The translations under genes were made by a program, and so were the position numbers. From positions 62,001-126,000 of IMG/VR virus record IMGVR_UViG_3300027712_001108: 64,000 nt of DNA, one strand, 5' to 3'. The notes below the pieces were generated by a model, which searched no databases, was not told the DNA's origin, and saw only the letters and a list, made by a program, of their open reading frames with translations. The stretch's first letter is position 1. Each line of letters opens with the position of its first letter. This stretch comes from a virus. Of the stretch, positions 9,810 through 63,500 are shown in pieces.

Positions 9810-10355
9810 ATGATACCTATTAGCGAATATATGAAATTGTCAAGAGACGACAGACGTGTACATCTTAAATTAAATGAACCGTGTGATGTTCGAGGCATAC
9901 GATATTCGTATAATTTGATAGGATTAGTTGCGTACTATATTAATACAAGTGTGCCGCAAAAAGGCGACAATGCAATAGTTTGTCATGCCTGTAATAATTC
10001 AGGTTGTTCAAATCCCAATCATTTATATTGGGGATCTTACAAAGATAATCATTCAGATCAAGTAGAATCTGGTACATGGCAATCACCATATGCACGTACT
10101 GTTAACAAATATGGAATTGATACTACAATCTCTATGTTAACTAAATCCGGTAAAGAAGGTGGTAAAAAACTATTAGGTCGTAGTAAATCGGACAATCATA
10201 AGAAAAGTTTGTCCAATTCTCAATATGGTACAATGTGGATAACAAATGGCATCGATAATAGAAAAATAAAAAAAGAGCAGGATGTAATACCAGAGGGATG
10301 GTATAAAGGTAGAATTCAACCACCAGCCAATCATATAAATACAGTATGCTTATAA
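9810..10355 (+). CDS. HNH homing endonuclease
   Basis: 181 residues, with GGAG upstream of ATG 9810. CHACNNSGCSNPNHLYWGS with DNHSD is the HNH core of phage homing enzymes (Cys pair, N-H-L-Y-W-G, N-H). The C-terminal part TMWITNGIDNRK with PEGWYKGR is the DNA-binding repeat often attached to HNH and GIY-YIG homing nucleases. It overlaps the next gene (leader protein, 10346) by 10 bases, so it probably invaded just upstream of that gene. Confidence 0.85.
   Translation: MIPISEYMKLSRDDRRVHLKLNEPCDVRGIRYSYNLIGLVAYYINTSVPQKGDNAIVCHACNNSGCSNPNHLYWGSYKDNHSDQVESGTWQSPYARTVNKYGIDTTISMLTKSGKEGGKKLLGRSKSDNHKKSLSNSQYGTMWITNGIDNRKIKKEQDVIPEGWYKGRIQPPANHINTVCL
10334..10341 (+). promoter_or_regulatory. T4-like late promoter box (perfect match)
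   Basis: TATAAATA, identical to the T4 consensus, inside the 3' end of the HNH gene and 4 bases before ATG 10346. Confidence 0.6.
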
Positions 10356-10984: not shown

Positions 10985-12463
10985 ATGGATATTGTAATTT
11001 GTATTTTGCCAAAGATAGAGCCTAGTGCTCCGTCTGTTGGTCCTTCTATTTTAAAAAGCCATTGTATTGCAGCAGGATTTTCCTGTAAGGTGGCGGATTT
11101 TAATATAGAATTGTACAACTCTATACCAACTGATATGCAAAGTATATGGCATAGCAACGATAGTGTATTTGATAATATGCACGAGTGGTTGCCGTTATAT
11201 GAACAGACATTTAAATCTACATTTGAACAGTTTGCAGATAGACTGATAGCAGAAAACTCAACATGGATAGGACTAAGTGTATTCAGTATCAAAAGCATGT
11301 TGCCTGCAATAGAGTTGATTAAACTAATCAAACATAAGAAACCAGAACAAAAAATTGTTGTTGGTGGCGCCGGTATCTATAACGACATAACTGCGCTAAC
11401 CGCAGCAGGTGCAGACCACTGGATAGTAGGCGACGCCGAAGAAAGCATTGTGGAATTGTTAAAAGGCAATATGTCTTTTAGAGGTATAGACAACACACAT
11501 CCTTACCAAATAGACGATTTGGATTCAGCTTCCATTCCCAACTATGACGACATAGATTTTAGCCAATATGCGAATTCTAATAACAGACAAGTATATATAA
11601 CAGCAAGTAGAGGCTGTATTAGAGACTGCACATTTTGTGATGTTGCATCAATGTGGCCTAAATTTAGATTTAGAAGCAGTGCAAATGTAGTAGACGAAAT
11701 CATACAACTGCGCCAACGATACGACATTAGAAATTTCTATTTTACAGACAGTCTTATAAATGGCGGTGTTAAAATATTCAGGGATATGTGCGCAGTATTG
11801 GCACAATACAGGCAAGAAACTGGCAGCGACTGGACATTGGGTAGCCAATTCATATGCAGATCTGCTGAACAGATGCCGCCAAACGATTATGATTTAATGA
11901 AAGCAGCGGGATTTTCTTGGGTTGCAATAGGTATAGAATCTGCCAGTCAAGCTGTGCGAGATCATATGAGAAAAGGATTTACCAATGAAGATATGTGGTA
12001 CACATTCGATCAGTTACATCGGGTTGGTATAAATCTAAACATACTGCTAATAGCTGGATACCTTACAGAAACCAAAGCTGATTTTGATGAAACTCTTGAC
12101 ATGATACATCGTTTAGCTAGGGAAGATTACCTAAGCAACATAGATGCCATTAATATATTTGAAGCAATCATTTTCAAAAAAACACCGTCGTATGATATAA
12201 GCAAGCAGCTTGGTGTTATAGATATAGACAATGACACATGGCATTTGCCAGACAATACCAACAATTTAAGAGTGAGAGTTGTTCGTACATTAAAAGCGTA
12301 TACACTGATAGAACGGTACAGAGGCGATGACAAAATGTTCTGGCTTGCCAAATCTGTAATACATTCTTGTACAACTCGTTACAAAGAACTAACCGGTCGC
12401 GATTTACCAACTGATATACTAAACTATGACGAATCGCTAGAATATAACCAATTGCCTTCGTAG
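10985..12463 (+). CDS. B12-binding-type radical SAM protein
   Basis: 492 residues. The N-terminal 170 residues look like a cobalamin-binding-type Rossmann domain (VICILPKIEPSAPSVGPS; IVVGGAGIYND). The radical-SAM core starts at SRGCIRDCTFC with Cys211, Cys215 and Cys218, followed by the FYFTDS and AIGIES strands typical of this class. It would cleave SAM on a 4Fe-4S cluster; substrate unknown. Its stop codon TAG is bases 8-10 of tRNA-Arg(TCG). MetK is encoded in the same window. Confidence 0.8.
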   Translation: MDIVICILPKIEPSAPSVGPSILKSHCIAAGFSCKVADFNIELYNSIPTDMQSIWHSNDSVFDNMHEWLPLYEQTFKSTFEQFADRLIAENSTWIGLSVFSIKSMLPAIELIKLIKHKKPEQKIVVGGAGIYNDITALTAAGADHWIVGDAEESIVELLKGNMSFRGIDNTHPYQIDDLDSASIPNYDDIDFSQYANSNNRQVYITASRGCIRDCTFCDVASMWPKFRFRSSANVVDEIIQLRQRYDIRNFYFTDSLINGGVKIFRDMCAVLAQYRQETGSDWTLGSQFICRSAEQMPPNDYDLMKAAGFSWVAIGIESASQAVRDHMRKGFTNEDMWYTFDQLHRVGINLNILLIAGYLTETKADFDETLDMIHRLAREDYLSNIDAINIFEAIIFKKTPSYDISKQLGVIDIDNDTWHLPDNTNNLRVRVVRTLKAYTLIERYRGDDKMFWLAKSVIHSCTTRYKELTGRDLPTDILNYDESLEYNQLPS

Positions 12464-14589: not shown

Positions 14590-14769
14590 ATGAAACGTAA
14601 ACAGCTAAAAGCGCCTAAACCGCGCAATCCCATTGTTAATATTGTCATGTTCCGCAGCGGTGCCGGTGTACATGACAAGCCCAACAAAGCCAAACGAGCA
14701 GCTAACAAAGTTGCTATGAAAAAGCAGGTCAGGGACAGTTTTGACCCTGACCGCAGTTTTGCAGCATGA
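14590..14769 (+). CDS. Small basic hypothetical protein
   Basis: 59 residues from ATG 14590 after AAAGGAGT. Very basic N-terminus (MKRKQLKAPKPRNP), then MFRSGAGVHDKPNKAKR. The coding sequence includes a perfect hairpin GGTCAGGG/CCCTGACC. Its TGA overlaps the ATG of the radical-SAM gene (ATGA), so the two are translationally coupled. Confidence 0.65.
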   Translation: MKRKQLKAPKPRNPIVNIVMFRSGAGVHDKPNKAKRAANKVAMKKQVRDSFDPDRSFAA

Positions 14770-15851
14770 CAGATACTAAACCATTTTGTTCTGCACCATG
14801 GACAAGTATTCAACATGGCTCTGTACTTCATCAAGGTGGTACATGCCCATGCTGCGAGTGGAATGGTAAAATATACAAAGGCGGTATTAAACAGTATTTG
14901 GAATCAGACTGGCTGCGCAGTGTTAAAGAAACCATGCAATCATATGACATGGATATAATCAATTCAACTTGTAAATCTTGTTTAGAAGTCGAAAAGCTAA
15001 ACATGCGGTCTAAGAGAAATCTAATAGACAACTGGATCGAATCTACCACTCTTGAATTTGACAAAATTGGATTAGTGGATTATCGGGCTAGCAATTTATG
15101 CAATTTAAAATGCAGAATGTGTTTTCCCAGTAACAGTTCTATGATTGCCAAAGAGATGAATATAGACATAGATAACAGCAACAATTTCGTTGATGATATT
15201 TACGAATATGATTTAAAAGATGTTGCTATTGTTAATATCGTAGGCGGCGAACCCAGTATAGATGATAAAGTTTTTAAGTTCCTAGATTGGTTAATTCTAA
15301 ACAACTGGCATGAACAAATGGAGTTGACTATTACAACTAATGCAACAAATACCAATAAAAACTGGATTGATCGCATTTCGAAATTTAAAAGATTAAATGT
15401 TATAATAAGTGTAGATGGTATAGGTGATGTATATGAATATATTAGAACAAATGCCAAATGGGACAGTGTAAGTAAAAACATATCCGTATACGAATCTATG
15501 CCAAATATTAGTGTAGCTTTTCAAATAACAGGCAGTATGTATAATATACCTGTAATAGAAAAATGGTTACCATGGTTTTTAGATAAGGAATATGCAAACA
15601 TATATCCGGTAGAAAGCCAACTGCATTTGACATTGGCGGCATTATCACCGGATATTAAACAAGAGAAAATTGCGTATTTAAAAACCATAAACTCTCATAT
15701 GGCAGCATCTACTATACAGATGTTAGAAAATGCAACATATGACAAGGCGGTACATTGCGCATTCGTTGATGATACTAATAAGTTAGACGGCATACGACAA
15801 ACAGACATTACCAGTATTGATACTGTTTTCGAACGAATACTGCGCCCGTAG
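14766..15851 (+). CDS. Radical SAM protein, short N-terminal Cys module type
   Basis: 361 residues. Residues 1-80 carry CSAPW, CPCCEW and CKSC, an auxiliary Cys module as in SPASM/twitch-type enzymes but placed first. The radical-SAM motif CNLKCRMC uses Cys112, Cys116 and Cys119; VGGEPS follows as the GGE SAM-binding motif. Substrate unknown, with peptide or RNA modification both possible. It ends with TAG inside tRNA-Lys(TTT). Confidence 0.8.
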   Translation: MTDTKPFCSAPWTSIQHGSVLHQGGTCPCCEWNGKIYKGGIKQYLESDWLRSVKETMQSYDMDIINSTCKSCLEVEKLNMRSKRNLIDNWIESTTLEFDKIGLVDYRASNLCNLKCRMCFPSNSSMIAKEMNIDIDNSNNFVDDIYEYDLKDVAIVNIVGGEPSIDDKVFKFLDWLILNNWHEQMELTITTNATNTNKNWIDRISKFKRLNVIISVDGIGDVYEYIRTNAKWDSVSKNISVYESMPNISVAFQITGSMYNIPVIEKWLPWFLDKEYANIYPVESQLHLTLAALSPDIKQEKIAYLKTINSHMAASTIQMLENATYDKAVHCAFVDDTNKLDGIRQTDITSIDTVFERILRP

Positions 15852-26808: not shown

Positions 26809-27978
26809 ATGACATCAGATCCCATTGACTGTTTTTACGCTAAAAATCATGCATTGGTATGGAGTAATGGATCTATTGCGCCTTGTTGCAATTACAAGGA
26901 TGGCGAAGATCCTATCGGCAATTATACCAACGTGTTTGAGTTTTTTAACAGCCCTGAAATGGCGCAGTTACGAGAAGATCACGCCAATGGTGTCAAACGT
27001 CAAGGTTGCCGTAAATGTTGGTCAGTTGAAGATATTGGCGGTACTAGCTATAGAAAACCCAGCAATCCCGATCACACAGGACAACTAAAAGGTTTAGATA
27101 TCGCCCTTGGTAGAACCTGCACATTGAAATGCAGAACCTGCGGTGCATTTGCTAGCAGTGCATGGGAAAGCGAATTAAAGTCGCGTGGTATACATAAGGA
27201 TTGGGGTAAACTTACCAGTGATGAAATACCAACGGCGGCATACGATCACATTGAGCAGTTAGACATCCAGGGCGGCGAACCGTTTCTCGATAAAAGACTA
27301 CCAGGCATATTAAATCATCTGCATACAAATGGTATCAGTAAGAATGTAAACTTGACTATTATCACCAATTTAGAATGGTTTCCAGACCAACGATTTACTG
27401 AACCGTTGAAACGATTTAAAAATCTACTAATCAAAATCAGTATTGATGGTGTGGGTACTAGAAACGAATATATGCGCAGTGGCAGTACGTGGGCAAACAC
27501 AATTAATACTGTTGAAAAATGGGGTCAGTTCAAACACAGTAAACCAGATAGCAATATAAAAATAGTAATCAGTCACACTATAAGCACTTTTAACTTTTTG
27601 TATTACGATGAAATGGTAGAAGAAACTGGTAAACTACGCACTTTACAGGGACTTGAAGATTTAGAACTCTGGGCGCATTATGCATTAGAGAATGAATGGC
27701 ATAATTGTTTCCTATTGCCAGATTCTCTTAAAGAAGAAGCTATAGGTATATGGGAGCAAGGTACTATACAGCCGTGGGAATATCAAACTTTTCGACATAA
27801 TACAGTAAGTATGCTATCTCAAGCGAGACCTATCCCACCGTTGCCGTTTGATAAATGGTGGTATAACAATGCCGAAATGGATAATATCAGAGGTCAGTCA
27901 ATACAAGATGCGCTGCCGGAATTAGTAAGCATGTTTGAAAAACACGGGCTCTTTTATAAAGATCAATGGACTAGGTAA
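26809..27978 (+). CDS. Radical SAM protein, short N-terminal Cys module type
   Basis: 389 residues. N-terminal Cys module (DCFYAKN, APCCNYKD, GCRKCW), then CTLKCRTC with Cys104, Cys108 and Cys111, and QGGEPF as the GGE motif. Same layout as the genes at 14766 and 33549, so three paralogues are present. Substrate unknown; the set may modify a peptide, protein or RNA. Confidence 0.8.
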   Translation: MTSDPIDCFYAKNHALVWSNGSIAPCCNYKDGEDPIGNYTNVFEFFNSPEMAQLREDHANGVKRQGCRKCWSVEDIGGTSYRKPSNPDHTGQLKGLDIALGRTCTLKCRTCGAFASSAWESELKSRGIHKDWGKLTSDEIPTAAYDHIEQLDIQGGEPFLDKRLPGILNHLHTNGISKNVNLTIITNLEWFPDQRFTEPLKRFKNLLIKISIDGVGTRNEYMRSGSTWANTINTVEKWGQFKHSKPDSNIKIVISHTISTFNFLYYDEMVEETGKLRTLQGLEDLELWAHYALENEWHNCFLLPDSLKEEAIGIWEQGTIQPWEYQTFRHNTVSMLSQARPIPPLPFDKWWYNNAEMDNIRGQSIQDALPELVSMFEKHGLFYKDQWTR

Positions 27979-28685: not shown

Positions 28686-28714
28686 TTGACAAGTTATCAG
28701 TTCTATGTTATCGT
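28686..28714 (+). promoter_or_regulatory. Possible sigma70-type promoter
   Basis: TTGACA (28686-28691) with TTATCG or TATCGT 16-17 bases downstream, ahead of ATG 28749. Confidence 0.4.
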
Positions 28715-28748
28715 CAATCAACAGTATTACATTGAACAAGGTGATGGC

Positions 28749-29129
28749 ATGTCTAGCAAAACTGATCAATTAATTGCCAAAGCACTCAGTACGTTTAGTG
28801 AAGACGAAGCTATTGCATGTTTGCGTATGGCTCGTAAGCACAACACTGGCGGTACCGCTACACAATCGACTGCATCAGCTGAACGAGATTGGGAAGCACT
28901 TGCTCGCAAATATCACAAAGCTGCATACGAGCTACAAGAAGAACTCAAGATAGTAAAAAGGCAAAGGCAACTTTATGCAGATTCGTCTGCACGTCATTCA
29001 CTTGATGCAAAGTTTGCCAAACAACAAGCAGAAACTATATCCCAAGACATGAAAAATCGTATAGTATACTGTGTAGTTATGCTAGTTCTTGCTGCATGCA
29101 CGTCATTTGCAATTGGTTATATAATTTGA
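28749..29129 (+). CDS. C-tail-anchored coiled-coil protein, DUF2786-like N-terminus
   Basis: 126 residues; ATG 28749 chosen for AAGG 11 bases upstream. Residues 6-30 (DQLIAKALSTFSEDEAIACL) follow the DUF2786 pattern (K-A-L-S-T..E-A-x-x-C-L). Residues of about 45-100 are helical and charged, and the last 22 are a membrane span. Exact role unknown. Confidence 0.6.
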   Translation: MSSKTDQLIAKALSTFSEDEAIACLRMARKHNTGGTATQSTASAERDWEALARKYHKAAYELQEELKIVKRQRQLYADSSARHSLDAKFAKQQAETISQDMKNRIVYCVVMLVLAACTSFAIGYII

Positions 29130-29150
29130 TAAAATGTTTATACAATGGTG

Positions 29151-29178
29151 TTGACAACTGGTATATTACAAGTTAAAG
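29151..29178 (+). promoter_or_regulatory. Candidate promoter of the long RNA
   Basis: TTGACA (29151-29156), 16-base spacer, TTAAAG. A second TTGACA with the same 16-base spacing and the same TTAAAG lies about 88 bases downstream (near 29239). Confidence 0.45.
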
Positions 29179-29281
29179 TAACACATGTAAGCAGCAATAA
29201 ACGAAGTTGAACTGTTGCTTACAAAAAATAAAAAACAGTTGACATGCTGTGTGTAAGATGTTAAAGTTATCAAGTAAGCAA

Positions 29282-29302
29282 GAAACGGTTTACATGCTCT
29301 TT
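29282..29302 (+). repeat. 21-base element, exact copy of 6438-6458
   Basis: Contains AACGGTTTACATGCTCTTT, within the 5' part of the long RNA region. Confidence 0.6.
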
Positions 29303-30076
29303 ATAAACGACACTGTGTTTACACAGACATATTGGGTAGTAACACTGTTAAGTAGCATTTGGTGATTCTTATGTGAAACAACAGGGTTAAACGCTTTCAA
29401 CAATAAGTTGGGATGTTACAATTAATCACTGTATCTACCGACTGACGATAGAGTAACAGTATGTCGATGCAAACACAGTTAGCTTTAATACACCTAACAA
29501 CAGCGAATGCTCGTTGCTGCTGAAAGAAACGACGGATGATGCAGCTTTAAAGTCCGTTGAACGCTTCTGTTGTAGATGTATTAGAGTTTGGATGATACGG
29601 CCGTTGAGAAACGTGAATATCATCTATGAGATTGGGGGTTTAGCCTCAATAGGATAAGTGCAGTGATGCACCCAAAGCCGGAAAGCCTACATACCGGCGC
29701 TAGTAAAATAGTCCATCTAAACAAGCCTGAACCAGTGTTGACTCGGGCAACCGAAAGCAACACCCGTCCGTAGAAAGGCGGTAGGCAGTAAGTTAGGAGC
29801 TCTGTCCGAAAGGATAGTCGCAGAGCCAGTCGGTGAGCGATAAGAGGGTTGGCGCCCAAACAGAGTTCAGCCAAACTAACGAATGCTGACAGTTAACAGG
29901 TAGTTACAGTGTCTGAGCCCGCAAGCAAAGGCATGGTAGCATTTCAAGAGTGGAAGGGTTAGGCCCCGGATACTTGAAGAAAGGTCAAGTAGTTCGCAAG
30001 ACGAAAGACACGAGGTGTGTTGTATTGGGTATGCCAAAAGCATATTCAGCAGCGGTGGTAGCACATCTCAGATAGG

Positions 30077-30153
30077 TTGCAAATAACTCAGCGGTAGAGT
30101 AATTCCCTTCTAAGGAATCGGCGAAGGTTCAATCCCTTCTTTGATAAATGCAA
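30077..30153 (+). tRNA. tRNA-Arg-like (TCT) element embedded in the long RNA
   Basis: D-arm ACTC/GAGT, anticodon arm ATTCC-CTTCTAA-GGAAT and T-arm GAAGG-TTCAATC-CCTTC are perfect. The acceptor is TTGCAAA against TTTG-CAA, split by a 7-base insert ATAAATG, and no CCA is present. It is likely a structural domain of the long RNA, not a working tRNA. Confidence 0.6.
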
Positions 30154-30469
30154 AGTCTACCACGGTATGTTGTGTAAGGTGTCAAATACTTGAGGCGCAA
30201 GCCAATCAAGTTCAACAAAGCTCGCAAGGCAGCGTTGATTTGTACTAGAAGATTCGTAGCTCGCAAGGCTTAATGGTTCGCAAGATCAACGGATAATAAG
30301 GTGCAGAATAGCAGCATATGACGAGTCTACTGCCTGACTCTAAAAACGGCGACACTGTTAGTGGACCAGATTACCGCAAGGGATCTAGTGGATGTCGGAA
30401 GAAAGCAACTCGCAAGGTTGGTAATAATGTCCGAAGCATTAACATCGAACGTGTAATCTCAGCGTTTTC

Positions 30470-30494
30470 AAAAAAGGCCCTTAGGGGCCTTTTT
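30470..30494 (+). terminator. Intrinsic terminator of the long RNA
   Basis: AGGCCC-TTAG-GGGCCT with an A-run before and five T after; could work in both directions. Confidence 0.88.
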
Positions 30495-30512
30495 GCATGA
30501 CTGAAACATCTG

Positions 30513-30520
30513 CTAAATAT
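30513..30520 (+). promoter_or_regulatory. T4-like late promoter box
   Basis: CTAAATAT 27 bases before ATG 30548. Confidence 0.5.
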
Positions 30521-30547
30521 CTGTGCAACATTTAGCGAGCTCACATC

Positions 30548-31225
30548 ATGCGTATCAACGAAATCTTAAACGAAGCAGAAACACCAAAAGTGGACATAGA
30601 GCATTATGGAAATTGGACAATAAGCATGAGCAAAGATCCAGTTATAATGAAAGCCATAACCGGAGACACGGCACAATTTGTTGCAAAAGTCACTAATAAA
30701 CGTCGTCCGCAAGCTGTGTTTTTTGGAGTAGGTACTACTCAGGGTGCAGCCAGAGACGATGCCATGTCAAAAGCTGTTGACCAAGAACGTCCAGACATGC
30801 ATGTAAAATATTCTTTAATACAAGGCAAGCTAAACGTACCGTTTTTTCGCGAATATTCTTCAGATAATCGTAATACGTATGTTAAATTCATAAAAGATGA
30901 CATCGGTAACACATCACTTGTGTTAGCAAACGACCAGTATGCTAGAGAATTTGGTAAATCATTATCAGAGTTGGGATTCAGTAGATGTACGCCGACACCC
31001 AATTTTGGTATGAATTTCACTATAACAGGCGATATGTTGTCAACTTATGGTCTTATACCTAATATGCGATATTCATTGAGCGCATATGACACAGACAATG
31101 ACGGCAATCAATTGTTTCAGTTAATACCCGAATCAAGATCACAAGGTCCGTGGGATAAGATGATTATGCGCACACCGGGACTTACTATTGCTGCAATACC
31201 AATGCGCGACACAATAAATAAATAA
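30548..31225 (+). CDS. Hypothetical protein with capsid-targeting-like leader
   Basis: 225 residues. Residues 1-9 MRINEILNE end in L-N-E, a T4 prohead-protease-type cleavage site, followed by AETPKVD. The rest is a mixed alpha/beta domain with no motif I recognise. Late box upstream. Probably packaged in the head or processed during maturation. Confidence 0.65.
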   Translation: MRINEILNEAETPKVDIEHYGNWTISMSKDPVIMKAITGDTAQFVAKVTNKRRPQAVFFGVGTTQGAARDDAMSKAVDQERPDMHVKYSLIQGKLNVPFFREYSSDNRNTYVKFIKDDIGNTSLVLANDQYAREFGKSLSELGFSRCTPTPNFGMNFTITGDMLSTYGLIPNMRYSLSAYDTDNDGNQLFQLIPESRSQGPWDKMIMRTPGLTIAAIPMRDTINK

Positions 31226-31432: not shown

Positions 31433-32665
31433 ATGTCAAGTGCAACGACTCTTGTCGCTAATAACACACAGGTAAATGCGACTGCTATAACAACTGCAAC
31501 GGCAAGTTCTAAGCAGAACTATGCTGCTGTTCGCAATAAACGCTTTTCTAATAAAAAAGGTATTAGTGTAAGTATTGATAAACGCTGGAACGATACTATT
31601 GCAGCATTACCTGCCAAAGAGCAAGCATCAATCAGTCAACAATTAACCAATGCTGTTGCAGAGTTTCGCAGACGTATGCCTCATGTAAAATCCTGGACAG
31701 ACTTGGATTTGGTAGAGGCTAAATCACTGATGATGAGTACCGTATATATCGACATAACTATCCAGCGTCTGCCAGACCCCGACTGGATATTGAAAATCAT
31801 AAACAAGTTTAAAGAATCCATGGTGACACCAATTGCAGTGTATAAAGACGAACACGGCGTATATCATGCTCGCGACGGACAGCATACTTTGATTGTGTTA
31901 TGGATTATTGCTACTAAAATTCTTGGCATTAATCCCGACAATGTGCAAATACCTGTCAACATTTACAAAGACAAGACCCGTGCAGAAGTTCGTGAAAATT
32001 TTATCAGCTCTAACAGCGACGGCAAATTGCAACTGGATGCATTTGATATCTACGAGCAAAAAATCTGCGGCGTTCGTGTAGACGGTAGCAAAAACCCGGA
32101 CTGGCTGCAAACAGAACTCAAACAACGTCATATTGAAAACAATGGCATGTTTGTAACAGCTAAAAAGTTTGGCGATGCCGACGAACCGGGTGCAATTAGT
32201 CGTTTACACGAAATTAATAAAATGCAAGCTGTTGCGGTAAAGAACTGCTGCGAGTATCTTAAGATAGTAGGATGCAACAACCGTGCAGTAGAAGAAAAAG
32301 AAATGGTGATGATGGGTCAGTTTTTTGATCGTTGTTATCATGCAGAACAAAACTACAAAACCAATAAGAAAGACCAATTACCAAATGTAGTTGTAACGCC
32401 ATCTTTTATAAAAGATCTTGCAACTACTACTACAAAATTATGGAATGCAGATTTTAAACCAGACAGTAAGTTTTGGAAAAAAGGTGCAGTTGCATATGTT
32501 AATTGGCATACATCTGTAGACATTAAAACCAAAGCCAAGTTTATGCCTGAACCTGTACACGGTATGCCATTTATGTTAGCATGTCTAGATAAACATTTTT
32601 CATATGCTATTCCACTTAATAGCAGCACATCAGAGTTTACCCCCGCAGAAAAGGATCTATTCTAA
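31433..32665 (+). CDS. ParB/Srx-fold protein
   Basis: 410 residues, GGAG upstream. After a Ser/Thr-rich N-terminus of about 40 residues, TPIAVYKDEHGVYHARDGQH carries the ParB/sulfiredoxin-fold core (D-G-Q-H in place of D-G-x-H-R), followed by a helical C-terminal region. ParB-like folds occur in DNA-binding proteins, nucleases and some NTP-using enzymes. Its TAA overlaps the ATG of the HNH gene, suggesting the two act together, for example on host DNA. Confidence 0.65.
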   Translation: MSSATTLVANNTQVNATAITTATASSKQNYAAVRNKRFSNKKGISVSIDKRWNDTIAALPAKEQASISQQLTNAVAEFRRRMPHVKSWTDLDLVEAKSLMMSTVYIDITIQRLPDPDWILKIINKFKESMVTPIAVYKDEHGVYHARDGQHTLIVLWIIATKILGINPDNVQIPVNIYKDKTRAEVRENFISSNSDGKLQLDAFDIYEQKICGVRVDGSKNPDWLQTELKQRHIENNGMFVTAKKFGDADEPGAISRLHEINKMQAVAVKNCCEYLKIVGCNNRAVEEKEMVMMGQFFDRCYHAEQNYKTNKKDQLPNVVVTPSFIKDLATTTTKLWNADFKPDSKFWKKGAVAYVNWHTSVDIKTKAKFMPEPVHGMPFMLACLDKHFSYAIPLNSSTSEFTPAEKDLF

Positions 32666-33147
32666 TGCTGTATGCAGAATATGACATTGTAAAATCCTCA
32701 GCAGTATTACGCACAGAAGTTGGTAATGTTTGTACTGTACCAGGGTGTAAAGAGCATATTACCCAAATGCGAGGTCCAGGCAGTAGCGTGCTGTGCAGAA
32801 ATCATCAACTCTATATGAGAGAGTACGGCGGTATGGGACGTATAGATAGACCGTGGACGTTTCATCGTAAACGATTTTGTATCGAATGTGGATTTAATCC
32901 ATACGAAGATACCAAAAATAAGTATTTTTATTTAAAAGATATAAATCCAGATCTCTGGCACAGGTTATGCAGAGGTAAACTAGTTGGTGATCATATAATC
33001 AGACCATCAGAGGGCGGCACAGATGAAGAGGATAATATACAAACATTGTGCAGACTTTGCGATAGTGATAAGACTACTATTAACGAAGACTGGCGTAAAG
33101 GCGACAAACGGCGACTAGACGAAGATAATAATGTAATAGACGATTGA
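32665..33147 (+). CDS. HNH endonuclease coupled to ParB-like gene
   Basis: 160 residues, ATG overlapping the previous stop (TAATG). Cys pairs CTVPGC and CRNH, then CIECGF, followed by GDHIIRPSEGGTDEEDNIQT and LCRLCD, a Cys-rich HNH core. Unlike the homing-type HNH genes here it has no late box of its own and is embedded in an operon, so it may be a stable phage function (host DNA degradation or defence) instead of a selfish gene. Confidence 0.8.
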   Translation: MLYAEYDIVKSSAVLRTEVGNVCTVPGCKEHITQMRGPGSSVLCRNHQLYMREYGGMGRIDRPWTFHRKRFCIECGFNPYEDTKNKYFYLKDINPDLWHRLCRGKLVGDHIIRPSEGGTDEEDNIQTLCRLCDSDKTTINEDWRKGDKRRLDEDNNVIDD

Positions 33148-33444: not shown

Positions 33445-33534
33445 GGAGGGATGGCCGAGAGGTTGATGGCTCTAGTCTTGAAAACTAGCGAGGGTGAAAG
33501 CCCTCCGTGGGTTCGAATCCCACTCCCTCCGCCA
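33445..33534 (+). tRNA. tRNA-Ser (TGA)
   Basis: Class II: acceptor GGAGGGA/TCCCTCC, loop CTTGAAA, variable arm GAGGGTGAAAGCCCTC, CCA encoded. Confidence 0.92.
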
Positions 33535-33548
33535 ATAATAATGCCAGC

Positions 33549-34685
33549 ATGACAAAGTTTTGTATACACAGCAATGCTGGCATCAGTTTAGTATCTGCAA
33601 CTGGTAAATTGATGCCGTGCTGTAAGTATAATGCAGATGACAATATCAGCAGCATTTACAACGTAACTACATTAAACGGGTTACATGACACGCCGCAATA
33701 TAAGCAGATGCAAGCACAGCTAAATGCTGGCATTTTTCCCACAGGTTGCAACTATTGCAAGACTACAGAAACTGCTGGTAGACAAAGTCGCAGACAACAT
33801 ACAAATCAAATGTATGACGATTTGAATATGTACGTACCAGGCCATGTGCAAGACATGGAAATTGCACTGGACTATACTTGTAACATGATGTGCAGAATGT
33901 GCAATCCAGGTGCTAGCAGCAAATGGAATATTGCACAATCTGTAATAAAGCAATTTGCAGAGCAGAAGATTGAATTAGATGGCAATAACAAATACCGTTC
34001 ATACCAAGATCAACTGCGCAGCGTATTAGACAATACTGATCTTAGCCATGCTAGAATAGTAAAAATAGAAGGCGGTGAACCGTTCTATGCTAAAAATTTA
34101 GAATGGTTCTTAGACAAACTAGATAAAGAAGTACTTGATAAAAGCAAACTATACATAAACATATTCACCAATGGCAGCATATATCCATCTGTTACGGTGC
34201 TGGAAAAACTAGCAAAATTGAACGCTGCAATCATATTCAGTATTGATGCAGTAGGTGAATTAGCTAGTACAATTCGCTGGGGTGTAGATTGGAACGTCAT
34301 TGCTGACAACATAGGCAAATGGCGCAAATTTGTTGATGCAAATCCACAAATGTCATTGCAAACCAACATAACAGTAAGCTTGCTTAATGTTAATAGACTG
34401 TCACCACTGCTGGCATTTTGTAAAAAATTGAATATAGATATAAACTTCAGCGAGTTAACATTCCCACATTACCTTAGTATCTATCAGCTACCCAAATCTG
34501 TTAGACAGCGTTGGACATACGATGACGAAACGCTAACTGGTATGATAATGGCAGATGTTGCGATTGAACCGGAATTTGCCAAGTTCATAGCCAGTGTAAA
34601 TATACTAGATGCATATCAAGGCTACAGTTTCGAAACTGTTAACAATGAGATGTATCAACTAATACAATCTCTATCCCCATGTTAA
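33549..34685 (+). CDS. Radical SAM protein, short N-terminal Cys module type
   Basis: 378 residues from ATG 33549. N-terminal module FCIHSNAG, MPCCKYN and CNYCK; radical-SAM motif CNMMCRMC with Cys111, Cys115 and Cys118; IEGGEPF. Third paralogue of this kind (with 14766 and 26809). It starts 15 bases after tRNA-Ser(TGA). Confidence 0.8.
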   Translation: MTKFCIHSNAGISLVSATGKLMPCCKYNADDNISSIYNVTTLNGLHDTPQYKQMQAQLNAGIFPTGCNYCKTTETAGRQSRRQHTNQMYDDLNMYVPGHVQDMEIALDYTCNMMCRMCNPGASSKWNIAQSVIKQFAEQKIELDGNNKYRSYQDQLRSVLDNTDLSHARIVKIEGGEPFYAKNLEWFLDKLDKEVLDKSKLYINIFTNGSIYPSVTVLEKLAKLNAAIIFSIDAVGELASTIRWGVDWNVIADNIGKWRKFVDANPQMSLQTNITVSLLNVNRLSPLLAFCKKLNIDINFSELTFPHYLSIYQLPKSVRQRWTYDDETLTGMIMADVAIEPEFAKFIASVNILDAYQGYSFETVNNEMYQLIQSLSPC

Positions 34686-39829: not shown

Positions 39830-40000
39830 GGTTGGTAATCCTGAAACCCTGAGACAAGTGAGGTGAGAACGCCCGTCTCACACACCAGCAATGGTAAAGT
39901 AGCGCAAGCGAAGAGATGCAGGAATCCTGTCTGTATGGCAGGTTGAAAACTGGGAACCTGCCACTTGTCAATACCCATTAAGATCGGCAGTAGGCCAACC
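39830..40000 (+). ncRNA. Structured RNA upstream of gene at 40024
   Basis: Nested helices GGTTGG (39830)/CCAACC (39995), GACAAGTG (near 39853)/CACTTGTC (near 39963) and GGCAGGTT (39937)/AACCTGCC (39955), with an alternative TGAGAC/GTCTCA. It ends 24 bases before an ATG, so it may be a structured leader (riboswitch or protein site) or a separate RNA. Confidence 0.55.
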
Positions 40001-54911: not shown

Positions 54912-55967
54912 ATGTCATACGAATTCGATATGGCCGTATTCATCGGTCGATTTGAGCCTTTTACTATCGCACATGCAACAGTTGTGCAAAAAGCTCTTAA
55001 CAGTGCCAAAAAAGTAACAGTTGTTATTGGTTCTGCAAATACTCCCAGAAATCATCGAAACCCCTGGACATATGAAGAACGTGCTGCAATAATCAAAGCA
55101 GCCTTTCCCAATGATGCTGATCGCATTATTACTACTCCTTTGGAAGATACTATCTACAACGATGAAAAGTGGACCAAGGACGTTCAAGCTGCTGTTAATG
55201 ATGCATTTACTGAAGCGTTTGGTGCATGGCATCCACTGGCCAAAGTTGCGCTGATTGGGCACGGCAAAGACAATACCAGTTTTTATCTTAGCTTGTTCCC
55301 GCAATGGGGTAGCATCAATGTTGAGAACATCGGTGGTATTTCTGCAACTGATGTACGCGATTGGTATTTTGGCAGCGACAGCGAATATTTTCAACGTATT
55401 AATAGTGCAGTGTTGCCTGCTAGCACAGATGCATTCTTGACTGAGTTTCGAAAAACACCAGACTTTGAAAACATCCGTGATGAATATGAGTTTGTTGCCA
55501 AGTACAAGCGTGCCTGGGATGCTGCGCCATTCAAGCCCACATTTGTCACAGTAGATACAGTTGTTGTGCAAAGCGGTCATGTGCTGCTAGTGCAACGTGG
55601 TGCTCGTCCTGGTAAAGGCTTGTGGGCATTGCCTGGTGGATTTCTTGAACAGGGCGAATGGATACAAGACGGTGCTATTCGTGAACTGCGTGAAGAAACC
55701 AAAATCAAAGTACCTGAGCCTGTGCTGCGCGGTAACATCAAAGCAAGTCGTGTGTTTGACGATCCCAATCGCAGCGCCCGTGGACGTACTATTACACATG
55801 CATACTTGATTCACTTGCCTCCTGCAACTGCACTGCCTAAGATCAAAGGCAGTGACGATGCAGTAAAAGCAAAATGGATGCCTATTGCAGATGTCAAACG
55901 CAGCATGATGTTTGAAGATCACTATGATATCGTTCAAACAATGATTGACATGCTCAAACTCAAGTGA
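54912..55967 (+). CDS. nadM: Bifunctional NMN adenylyltransferase / Nudix hydrolase
   Basis: 351 residues. Residues 1-180: MAVFIGRFEPFTIAHATVV with the T/H-x-x-H nucleotidyl-transfer motif and GSANTPRNHRNPW, as in NadM-type NMN adenylyltransferase. Residues 205-350: Nudix domain with GGFLEQGEWIQDGAIREL then REETKI, the complete G-x5-E-x7-R-E-x2-E-E box. The fusion occurs in KVP40-type phages. It makes NAD from NMN; the Nudix part may hydrolyse ADP-ribose. Works with NadV at 56779. Confidence 0.92.
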   Translation: MSYEFDMAVFIGRFEPFTIAHATVVQKALNSAKKVTVVIGSANTPRNHRNPWTYEERAAIIKAAFPNDADRIITTPLEDTIYNDEKWTKDVQAAVNDAFTEAFGAWHPLAKVALIGHGKDNTSFYLSLFPQWGSINVENIGGISATDVRDWYFGSDSEYFQRINSAVLPASTDAFLTEFRKTPDFENIRDEYEFVAKYKRAWDAAPFKPTFVTVDTVVVQSGHVLLVQRGARPGKGLWALPGGFLEQGEWIQDGAIRELREETKIKVPEPVLRGNIKASRVFDDPNRSARGRTITHAYLIHLPPATALPKIKGSDDAVKAKWMPIADVKRSMMFEDHYDIVQTMIDMLKLK

Positions 55968-56778: not shown

Positions 56779-58161
56779 ATGACTAACTTAATTCTCAATA
56801 CAGACAGCTACAAAGCCAGCCATTGGGGCCAATACCCTGCTGGCACCGAGCGAGTATACAGCTACATTGAAAGCCGAGGCGGGCGATTTGATCGCACTGT
56901 GGTATTTGGTCCGCAGATGTTTATCAAGAACACGCTGATGAAAGGCGTTACAGTTGATGACGTTAAAGAAGCCAAAGAGATGTGGCCTGCACATGGTGAA
57001 CCTTTCAACGAAGAAGGTTGGATGGACATTGCTGTTCGACTCAAAGGCAAGCTGCCGTTGCTGATCAAAGCAGTACCGGAAGGTACTGTATTGCCTACGC
57101 ACAACGCTATGGTTACACTGGAAAACACTGACCACAAGCATTTTTGGTTGACCAGCTACATCGAAACTGCACTGCTTCGTGCTGTTTGGTACCCGACCAC
57201 TGTTGCTACGCTCAGCTGGCACATCAAGCAGATGATCAAAGCTGCAATCGATAAGACCAGCGATGTGCCTGAGCAGATTGCATTCAAGCTGCACGACTTT
57301 GGTGCTAGAGGTGTAAGCAGCGAAGAGACTGCCGGCATTGGCGGCGCTGCACACCTTGTGAACTTTATGGGTACTGATACCATGAGTGGTGTTGTTGCTG
57401 CCAAGCGTTATTACAACGAGCCAATGGCAGGCTTTAGTATTCCTGCTGCTGAACACAGCACTATGACCAGCTGGGGTCGTGATCACGAAGCAGACGCATA
57501 TTCTAACATGATTGACCGTTACGGCAAGCCGGGTGCTGTGTTTGCCGTAGTCAGCGACAGCTATGACTTTTGGCATGCAGTAAGTAGCATCTGGGGAGAA
57601 CAACTACGCCAGCGTGTGATAGACAGTGGTGCTACACTAGTTGTGCGTCCCGACAGCGGTGATCCTACCACTGTGCCAGTTAAAGCAATTGAACTACTGG
57701 CAGAGAAGTTTGGCTACACTGTGAACAGCAAAGGCTACAAGGTACTGCCTAACTGTGTGCGAGTGATCCAAGGTGACGGCATCACAATCGAAAGCATCGT
57801 TACACTGCTTGCCAACTTGGAAACTGCTGGATTTGCCATCGACAACCTTGCGTTTGGTATGGGCGGCGGACTTGGACAGATGGTCAACCGCGACACGCAG
57901 AAGTTTGCCATGAAAGCCAGTGCTGCTATGGTTAACGGCGAATGGCGCGATGTTTACAAAGATCCTGTCACTGACCACGGCAAGCAAAGCAAGCGTGGAC
58001 GACTGGCACTGATCCGTGAAAACGGCAAGTGGGAGACTGTTGGCGAAAGCGGCTGGGCGTGGGCCAATTACCTAGAACCTGTATTCCGCGATGGTGAACT
58101 GCTGCGTGACCAGACATTTGCAGACGTTCGTGCGCACAGCAACCGTACTGCATTGGACTAA
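56779..58161 (+). CDS. nadV: Nicotinamide phosphoribosyltransferase
   Basis: 460 residues, close to full-length NadV/NAMPT. LNTDSYKASHWGQYPAGTE at the start, then FKLHDFGARGVSS, GFSIPAAEHSTMTSWG, VVRPDSGDP and FGMGGGLGQMVNRDT are the family blocks holding the catalytic His and PRPP-binding residues. It converts nicotinamide and PRPP to NMN, which NadM then turns into NAD: the two-step salvage by which some phages undo NAD-depleting defences. Confidence 0.95.
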   Translation: MTNLILNTDSYKASHWGQYPAGTERVYSYIESRGGRFDRTVVFGPQMFIKNTLMKGVTVDDVKEAKEMWPAHGEPFNEEGWMDIAVRLKGKLPLLIKAVPEGTVLPTHNAMVTLENTDHKHFWLTSYIETALLRAVWYPTTVATLSWHIKQMIKAAIDKTSDVPEQIAFKLHDFGARGVSSEETAGIGGAAHLVNFMGTDTMSGVVAAKRYYNEPMAGFSIPAAEHSTMTSWGRDHEADAYSNMIDRYGKPGAVFAVVSDSYDFWHAVSSIWGEQLRQRVIDSGATLVVRPDSGDPTTVPVKAIELLAEKFGYTVNSKGYKVLPNCVRVIQGDGITIESIVTLLANLETAGFAIDNLAFGMGGGLGQMVNRDTQKFAMKASAAMVNGEWRDVYKDPVTDHGKQSKRGRLALIRENGKWETVGESGWAWANYLEPVFRDGELLRDQTFADVRAHSNRTALD

Positions 58162-60568: not shown

Positions 60569-63500
60569 ATGAAAATCAAAAATATCACATCGCGAATTAA
60601 GTTGGCAGAAGCACCTGGTACCGGACAAGCGACTCAGGTACGTCCTGCTACTAATGTGCCACGCGGTATGCGCAATTCTACAGGCAATGGTCCTAAAAAA
60701 CCCACTAACTTTGCAGCAAACGACAATATTGTTAAAAAAGCCGCTGACATGATTGGTAGTACAGGTGCATCAGCTGAAGAAATTGTAGCAAGTCCATGGT
60801 ATGCAAGATGGTACGATACATTTGCAGATGGTGCAAAATTTGCGGGCAAAGGTGCCTGGAATGGTGTTAAGATTGCCGGTAAAGTTGCAAGCAAAGTTGC
60901 ATTGCCATTGCTGGCGTGTGTGGCCATATATGACGGCTATACTCAAATAACTGCCATAGATAAAAATGATACCAATCGTAGAAATAAAATAATTGCTATA
61001 GTAACTAAACTTGTGGCAGATTATGGATTTCCGGCAGTTGCAGGATATCTCGGTGCAATGGCAGGTGGTGCAGTTGGTGCATGGGTAGGCGGAGTAGGTG
61101 CGGCACCTGGTGCATTGATAGGAGGTATTGCCGGAGAAGCTGCTGCGTTTATTACACAATGGCAATATGGTGATAATATAGATCAAGCAATTGAAGATCT
61201 AGTAGATAATGTTCTTATGGATGCACCGCCATTGCGAAAAGCAACAGGTACATACACTGCACCGTATGATGTATCCAACGACGAACAAGGTGCACCGTTA
61301 CCCTATGACGATATTGTGCCTAATCCAATTGTCAATCCAAATTCGAATCCTGTTGTAGATCCTTCTACACCAGTTGTAACTAAACCTGCTGCTGTAACTG
61401 CATCACCCACTGCACAAAATACTGCTAAAAAACCTGAAAGTAAACCAAAAACTGCTGTAACACCAAGTGCTGCAAGTACTACTACAAGACCACCGACTGC
61501 TAAGTTGCCAGTTACAACATCTACACCAACTGTGCCTCAAACTCCAAAGGTTACAATACCTAAAACTCCTACAACTGCAACACAGCCTAATTATGATGAG
61601 TTAACATTCAAGCAGGCATTTGCTCGTGCCAGAGAACGTGCAAGACAATTGTCACCTGATGATGCAGGCAAGTATACATTTACATGGCGTGGTAAACCAT
61701 ATCAAACAAATTACAAAGGCAGTGGCACTGCTGCCAGACCAAATGAGCCTTATATATCTCAGAAAAAGCAGCGCGGTATGATGAGTACTGCACCAATAAA
61801 AAATCCATACGAAAATCCAAAAAACGAAAGCATGAATTTTGCTGTTGATGAAGGAGTGTTAGACGTACTTGGCAGACTTGGTACAGGTATCAAAGGGTTG
61901 TTTAAAGGCGGTAAAGCACTTACCGCAGCAGAGAAAGCAGCAGCTGAAGCCGCCGAAGTCGCAGCAAAAGCTGCTAGAGCATTAGAGAAGACACTGTCTA
62001 ACGGTAGGAAATATAGATACGACGAACTTAAAAAAGTCTGGTATGATGTTGAAAAAGAAGCTACCATAGGTAAAAAAGCAGCACAAGTAAATTCTGCCAG
62101 TGTAGAAGGTCGTGAGCTATATGCTATACGATCTGCAAAAATAGATGCAGAGGCTGCGGCTTCGGCAGGTACCACTGCATCTAAAATTACACCAGAGGTT
62201 AAAGCATTATTACGCAAAAAGCCGCCAGAAAGTTGGACAGTTGCAGAACTTACAAGCTTGGGTCTTAAAATAGAGGATGTGCCATTTTTATCTGCTGCTA
62301 GATCAGTGGGGCTTGACATTGCTGCAACTGCTGACGAAATTGTCAAGGCGCCATGGTATAGTGCATGGAGCAAGCTTGTACATGTCACCGGAGTTGTTTC
62401 TAATAATCTATTAATGGCTGCAATAAATGGTGCAGTGCCTGTATTTGAAGCAATTGGAAAACTACAACAACTTGATAAAAATGATCCAAATTATCAACGT
62501 AGACGAAACGAAATATGGGCAGAGTGTATTGCAAAAATTGGTGTACAGGCAACTGCTGCTATACTAGGTGCCGCAATTGCTCGTAAGTTAGTAGGTAAAG
62601 TCACAGCTAATAACAAAGCAAAATGGGTAGCAACACTGGTTGGAGAGTTTGCAGGGTTGACTGCTGAACAAATTTTCATAGATCCAAGTATAGAATCTAT
62701 AGTGCAAAAAGCCAGCGACGTTATAACAGGAACTACAATACCCAGAGGGCAGGTGACTGATCCCACAACCGGTGAACCTCAGACAAACGCAGATGGCACA
62801 CCTGCAAATTACGGCGATGTTACAAATAATCCATTGTATAAGAAGGCATATAACTGGGCAGTAAAATCTGGATATACAGGTGATGGTCCTGCTAGATTTG
62901 CCATGATGATTTATAAACAAGGGCCAAATGGTCCTCTTGTTAATCAACTAAATGAAACTATTTTAGTTGGATGGCTCTACAAACAACTACAAGAGTCAAC
63001 AGATGCACGACGCACTATTAACATCCACAATAGTATTAGATCTATACTAGCAGAACGTACCAATGCCGATGCAATTGAACGTGTTGCATTCACATTGGTG
63101 GAATCTGGTATATTCAATGAAGATGCCGATAGTGATAACTTTATGACCAATGTCACTGCTGCCATTGCAGCCAATACCAAAGGCGACAAAGTAGGCGCAC
63201 AAAAAGCCCTTGATGCTGCAAAATTGAATAACCCAGCCACAGGCACTGATCAAACCAATCAAAAGAAAATGCTGGATCAATTGACCAAAGCAAATCCCAG
63301 CCTGGCCGTACCCAATACCAATCCAAACTCTACTCAAAATCAAACACCAAATCCCAATGCCACACAGAGTAATGTTGAAGAAGCCGGCGGCATCGGCGGC
63401 GGCATGTCTGGTGGTGCAATACACGGTCAGGCAGTTGGTGCTAATGCAACAGAAGTAATTCAAGCCTATAATGAATTTGCAGCACAATATCCCATTGCTA

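Follow-up and report, generated by a model that had tools for sequence, protein, structure and literature searches.

The 64,000-nucleotide (nt) stretch of viral DNA analyzed here (the window; positions 62,001 to 126,000 of IMG/VR record IMGVR_UViG_3300027712_001108) carries a gene for a GOLLD RNA, and the linker of this RNA contains a truncated tRNA-like domain. Comparison with relatives in other viruses shows this domain to be a dedicated module, a tRNA mimic with its own lineage that has been exchanged between GOLLD genes and that changes fastest at its anticodon. tRNAs within GOLLD linkers are already known; the mimic as a separate lineage was not found in the accessible literature, and Weinberg 2009 or Morgado 2020 may already record the truncation.

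We used cmscan to compare the region with all Rfam models; this analysis identified GOLLD (RF02032) at 30012–30465 with 217.1 bits (gathering score, 150; E = 4.6e-60), and the match covers the model completely, from position 1 to position 416. On this evidence, the RNA is almost certainly a bona fide GOLLD. An earlier annotation made without database searches (the sequence-only reading) had likened the region to GOLLD and ROOL RNAs, either as a divergent member or as a new class, and had proposed an Infernal search with both models. Because RF02032 matched over its full length, the guess of GOLLD was right, and the RNA in its entirety does not represent a new class; the ROOL model gave no match at E ≤ 1 in 28700–30700. 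Within that interval, no Rfam family other than GOLLD and tRNA was detected at E ≤ 1, the Y-RNA family model (YrlA) being among those without a match, and a group II intron is likewise ruled out. The sequence-only reading was also correct that no credible open reading frame is present: on both strands of 29130–30547, the longest (84 amino acids) is antisense and unsupported. The RNA has the general build of a GOLLD, with a conserved 3′ region, a less conserved 5′ region, and a total of ~850 nt (at least ~800 nt are expected). It also has the phage location typical of GOLLDs, as the only copy in the entire 157,923-bp virus record and in a window with 33 free tRNAs. The corresponding features are as follows.

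30012–30465, plus strand: GOLLD 3′ domain, whole RF02032 model (cmscan)
3921–36256, plus strand: 33 free tRNA genes in an array that surrounds the RNA; CCA is encoded in each

The tRNA-Arg(TCT)-like domain described in the sequence-only reading was recovered at 30077–30147 by both ARAGORN and the tRNA model (55.6 bits); however, its acceptor is not split by seven bases, as had been proposed, but stops after four pairs. The linker and the mimic comprise the following features.

30073–30078, plus strand: TAGGTT motif at the opening of the linker, nearly invariant among relatives
30080–30143, plus strand: tRNA mimic, without CCA
30080–30083 with 30140–30143, plus strand: 4-bp acceptor of the mimic
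30086–30100, plus strand: D arm of the mimic
30102–30118, plus strand: anticodon arm of the mimic, with loop CUUCUAA and triplet UCU at 30109–30111
30123–30139, plus strand: T arm of the mimic
30150–30155, plus strand: GCAAAG motif that closes the linker

Relatives were collected with a linker-blind pattern for the GOLLD 3′ end, which returned ~110 viral GOLLD loci, and with a second pattern, which enlarged the insert-bearing set to 58 viral loci representing 41 distinct insert sequences. GOLLD searches across many loci were done with nhmmer; near-duplicate metagenomic contigs were present, and counts were made on distinct sequences. In the mimic helices (D, anticodon, T, and four acceptor pairs), 99.2% of cells are paired, compared with 34–46% in slid controls; changes on both sides occur in 16 of the 18 mimic pairs, and all four helices covary strongly. 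The four core acceptor pairs are formed in 39–40 of the 41 inserts, whereas the pairs that would complete the acceptor (3-70, 2-71, and 1-72) form in 19, 22, and 19 inserts, compared with 21, 21.8, and 19.3 in shuffles. The CAA of the supposed TTG/CAA pairing belongs to the GOLLD motif GCAAAG. A split acceptor with a seven-base bulge is thus ruled out, because the additional pairs are at chance level in relatives; by this comparison, the insert is a tRNA body that ends after four acceptor pairs, with the other three at chance level. The missing acceptor end could also be expected of a pseudogene, i.e., a decayed tRNA that was inserted in GOLLD by chance, and a mycobacterial counterpart has been named a pseudo-tRNA (PMC6582537). 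However, the compensatory changes refute this explanation unless the alignment is wrong, and the domain is kept across at least 41 distinct sequences from both AT-rich metagenomic and GC-rich Caulobacter phages; we regard decay as extremely improbable.

ARAGORN calls a tRNA in 50 of the 58 insert loci, and these 50 inserts never encode CCA, whereas 644 of the 662 distinct free tRNAs of the same loci do. The window follows this pattern: its insert lacks both CCA and a seven-pair acceptor, whereas 33 of 33 other tRNAs in the window encode CCA. In other respects, the window insert is built like a functional tRNA, with D and T arms and a seven-base anticodon loop that includes U33 (CUUCUAA). Among the 41 inserts, 35 have a seven-base anticodon loop and 6 have a loop of 8 or 9 bases; a TTC T-loop is present in 38, and a GG D-loop is present in 40. 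U33 is kept in 34 of the 35 seven-base loops, and U36 occurs in 30 of the 35, compared with 226 of 659 free tRNAs, in a test that ignores relatedness. These ARAGORN calls, the mostly canonical loop architecture, and the annotation of inserts in Caulobacter and Mesorhizobium phages as tRNA genes by their depositors are all compatible with a working tRNA whose gene overlaps GOLLD by chance and which is excised by host enzymes and used in translation. We consider such a tRNA very unlikely, however, as constraint extends to only four acceptor pairs, CCA is found in none of the inserts, some loops have 8 or 9 bases, the insert of phage phiCbK lacks U33, and the mycobacterial element shows no separate expression (PMC6582537).

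The inserts are more closely related to one another than to free tRNAs: for 38 of the 41, the closest sequence is another insert and not one of the 532 free tRNAs compared (mean identity, 0.89 versus 0.75). A recent copy of a neighboring phage tRNA is ruled out as the source of the mimic, as free tRNAs of the same locus are at most 74% alike to it. Loci L075 and L077, whose surrounding contigs are 82–85% alike, are identical over 75 nt upstream and 300 nt downstream, whereas their mimics are only 59% alike; L075 shares its mimic with L229 on GOLLD bodies that are ~78% alike. The evidence for swapping thus consists mainly of one very clean contig pair, plus overall discordance. On a body tree of 47 rows, in which several branches are weak and long branches meet, we counted at least 21 anticodon changes. 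In a comparison of 13 disjoint sister pairs, differences fell more often in the anticodon triplet than at the other unpaired positions (odds ratio, 4.4; p = 0.0035); the numbers are small, and this test is one among several.

Of the 74 distinct 3′ domains whose length allowed a judgment, the tRNA-like insert is present in 15 and absent in 59; a structural score separates insert-bearing (49–53) from insert-free (≤39) 3′ domains cleanly. The share of GOLLDs with an insert is approximate, because loci were found by exact DNA patterns. The insert is accompanied by its own type of 5′ domain: a profile of this domain matches 57 of the 58 insert loci and, outside them and besides the window’s own locus, only L039 (IMGVR_UViG_3300034072_000926), whereas an iterated 5′ profile of insert-free GOLLDs matches none of the insert-type loci. 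As defined by these profiles and alignments, the tRNA-like domain and the 5′ domain together mark a distinct sub-class inside GOLLD. Locus L039 retains part of the mimic-type 5′ domain and has a short linker from which the mimic has been lost naturally. This natural loss, and the other linkers that occupy the same place in mimic-free GOLLDs, would suit a mimic that is a mere compact structural filler of the linker, for which any stable fold with a fitting end-to-end distance would do; however, a filler would not preserve a tRNA body specifically, as is seen in the seven-base loop, U33, TTC, and GG counts above, nor does it account for the strong covariation in the mimic helices. We therefore rate a filler as unlikely. 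When the window RNA was searched directly against phage records with blastn, no match was obtained, and we found no homologue of the downstream protein with which to locate syntenic phages. In bacterial genomes, none of 65 pattern matches fit GOLLD profiles, and Rfam identified no GOLLD in the 18 that were checked.

With the RNA of a relative as the query, we identified matches in phiCbK and 17 other Caulobacter records, Sinorhizobium phage Phosso, and Mesorhizobium phage Cp1R7A-A1; the cultured-phage examples that were checked score 165–194 bits for GOLLD. In GenBank, the insert is annotated as tRNA-Lys in CcrMagneto, Karma, Swift, Ccr5, and RBC57, as tRNA-Gly in phiCbK and others, and as tRNA-Leu in Cp1R7A-A1. 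Two of these inserts are located as follows.

L302 1142–1213 (JX100813.1 102638–102709): phiCbK insert, annotated tRNA-Gly
L298 1591–1662: CcrMagneto insert, annotated tRNA-Lys

Some annotated phage tRNA genes are accordingly parts of a large RNA, and both the GenBank annotation of phiCbK-like phages and the tRNA numbers published for them probably count a non-tRNA. In the 2012 phiCbK genome paper, Rfam gave no functional RNA besides tRNAs (PMC3556154). The CcrMagneto and phiCbK inserts differ in the anticodon loop only (CCTCTTAAG versus CCGTCCTAG, with one closing base on each side), and the phiCbK mimic loop lacks both U33 and A37. phiCbK and its relatives on Caulobacter crescentus offer a tractable system, with natural variants that are almost alike except in the anticodon loop of the mimic (CUU versus UCC). 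A permuted tmRNA (RF04321, ~71 bits) is also found beside GOLLD in phiCbK-like phages and is unannotated in the records shown.

L298 698–1017, L300 699–1017, L302 250–568, and L303 155–473, minus strand: permuted tmRNA RF04321

The remaining features of the window RNA define its extent.

29151–29179, plus strand: predicted sigma70-type promoter 1, TTGACA-17-TAAAGT (sequence match)
29239–29267, plus strand: predicted promoter 2, TTGACA-17-TAAAGT, equal spacing (sequence match)
29186–29616, plus strand: 5′ leader, not conserved and weakly structured (putative start, from promoter 1)
29617–30078, plus strand: conserved 5′ domain of tRNA-mimic type GOLLD, structured and covarying (alignment and consensus fold)
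30471–30494, plus strand: intrinsic terminator, 10-bp hairpin AAAAAGGCCC-TTAG-GGGCCTTTTT followed by a U tract (sequence)

The sequence-only reading had placed the RNA at 29180–30494; conservation throughout this interval is ruled out, as the upstream parts of 35 relatives, when aligned, are conserved from ~29617 on but not before it, and the conserved RNA is ~29617–30465. Other elements that it had noted fared better. The comparative folding that it had suggested, done with 23 relatives, gave a 5′ domain consensus fold of 103 pairs, 78 of which show a change of both bases in one or more sequences, in agreement with its long-range helices; its C-GCAA-G tetraloops are indeed repeated, with CGCAAG occurring 8 times in the conserved core (0.45 expected), and its strong terminator corresponds to the hairpin and U tract listed above. 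Its plausible promoter is real as a sequence match, and the two TTGACA-N17-TAAAGT sites are the only ones in the window. Upstream of the core, a promoter match of at least 11/12 is present in 22 of 35 relatives, compared with 0.1 in shuffles, at distances that range from adjoining to several hundred bases; a leader of variable length is thus usual. In the window, the leader is ~340–430 nt long and folds barely better than shuffles (z = −1.96), although free-energy z-scores by themselves carry little information. Within 29151–29310, the two promoters share their spacing and −10 element, and a similar GTAAGCA motif comes after each, which gives the impression of a duplication.

We propose that the window RNA forms a cage that holds a translation-incompetent tRNA mimic in its interior linker, where the mimic binds a tRNA-recognizing partner; partner and cage are inferred, and we judge the chances of this proposal being right or wrong to be about equal. 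Transcription would run from 29151 or 29239 to 30494, and the 5′ and 3′ domains would assemble the RNA into a cage like that of GOLLD env-38, a 14-mer with the linker inside (PMC12286853). One mimic per chain would be held in the cage interior, at the place of the env-38 linker. The mimic would be neither chargeable nor usable for decoding, and its body and anticodon loop would most likely bind a tRNA-directed host enzyme, a translation factor, or the ribosome; this partner would be retained at the cage or within it while a phage with a large tRNA set of its own infects the cell. A binder that reads the tRNA elbow and the anticodon arm is suggested because the tRNA body is conserved without a charging end. 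Published observations also favor the proposal: ribosomes have been reported in GOLLD pull-downs (PMC12286853), and the mycobacterial GOLLD pseudo-tRNA did not appear as a small RNA of its own (PMC6582537).

Several points weigh against a partner-binding cage. For mimic-bearing members, the transcript, the cage, and the binding partner are all deduced from sequence. No sequence profile common to the 5′ domains of mimic-type and mimic-free GOLLDs was detected, and the mimic-type oligomer could therefore differ from that of env-38. The anticodon loop of the window insert is canonical, and a free tRNA-Arg(TCT) is also present; judged by the window genome alone, translational use would thus be possible. 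In addition, a Lactobacillus prophage GOLLD that builds up during lysis is not needed for the phage to be produced in the laboratory, as quoted in PMC7567579.

Like env-38 (PMC12286853), the window RNA has the whole conserved 3′ domain, a length of ~850 nt, a phage location near tRNAs, and the same linker position. However, its 5′ domain belongs to another sequence family than that of mimic-free GOLLDs, its linker is a folded tRNA mimic whereas the env-38 linker is disordered, and its phage leader is longer; a cage has been seen for env-38, whereas the window RNA is known from sequence alone. The GOLLD of M. aubagnense, reported to hold one pseudo-tRNA gene, resembles the window in its internal tRNA-like element, large tRNA cluster, and HNH endonuclease (PMC6582537); the likeness is one of description, and here the element is a conserved truncated module in many phages. 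ROOL, too, is a large RNA that phages encode near tRNAs, and its cage likewise encloses a linker; however, it is unrelated to GOLLD in sequence and fold. YrlA, a bacterial Y RNA, is noncoding and contains a tRNA-like module that is unable to act as a tRNA; mimicry of tRNAs by bacterial Y RNAs was reportedly described by Chen in 2014 (cited in PMC9569102). These are small host RNAs, no Rfam Y-RNA match was found here, and the resemblance is one of kind, not descent. If the GOLLD linker element is a dedicated tRNA mimic, the question about the cage becomes which tRNA-binding molecule it holds.

The embedded domain might instead be a decoy, with an anticodon arm that lures anticodon nucleases or tRNA-cleaving toxins off real tRNAs and a loop engaged in an arms race. 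The concentration of differences at the anticodon triplet among the sister pairs, the confinement of all phiCbK versus CcrMagneto mimic differences to the anticodon loop, the dense tRNA arrays around mimic loci, and the prevalence of U36, found in a class of triplets to which Lys and Asn belong, would all suit a decoy. However, the loop could vary simply because it is unconstrained, an enzyme would need access to the interior of a closed cage, and a nuclease that cuts real anticodon loops might depend on U33 and A37, both missing from the phiCbK loop; with the link to any defense system being conjecture, we view a decoy as rather unlikely. A variable anticodon fits a decoy and a swappable specificity alike, and the data do not choose between them. 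It is more doubtful still that a class of phage RNA cages serves as an RNA-only counter-defense, unnoticed in phiCbK, in which the exchangeable mimic inside the cage, through its rapidly changing anticodon loop, baits host tRNA-attacking enzymes.

tRNA density is 1.76 per kb at mimic-bearing loci and 0.19 per kb at GOLLD loci without the mimic (nine times). In the window, an HNH endonuclease gene (32665–33147) lies downstream of GOLLD at a distance of a few genes; the two kinds of gene have also been reported together in mycobacterial tRNA clusters (PMC9569102). Radical SAM proteins are scattered among the tRNA genes (10985–12463, 14766–15851, 26809–27978, and 33507–34685); one has a B12-binding domain, and one has a SPASM domain. 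In locus L012, a tmRNA (RF00023) lies at 9813–10209, ~2.5 kb downstream of a mimic-free GOLLD. Farther along the window, Skipping-rope RNA (RF02924) was detected at 39853–39969 with 49.8 bits, over its cut-off, and a nicotinamide phosphoribosyltransferase (56779–58161) and a cytidylyltransferase-NUDIX protein (54912–55967) likely form a phage NAD salvage pair.
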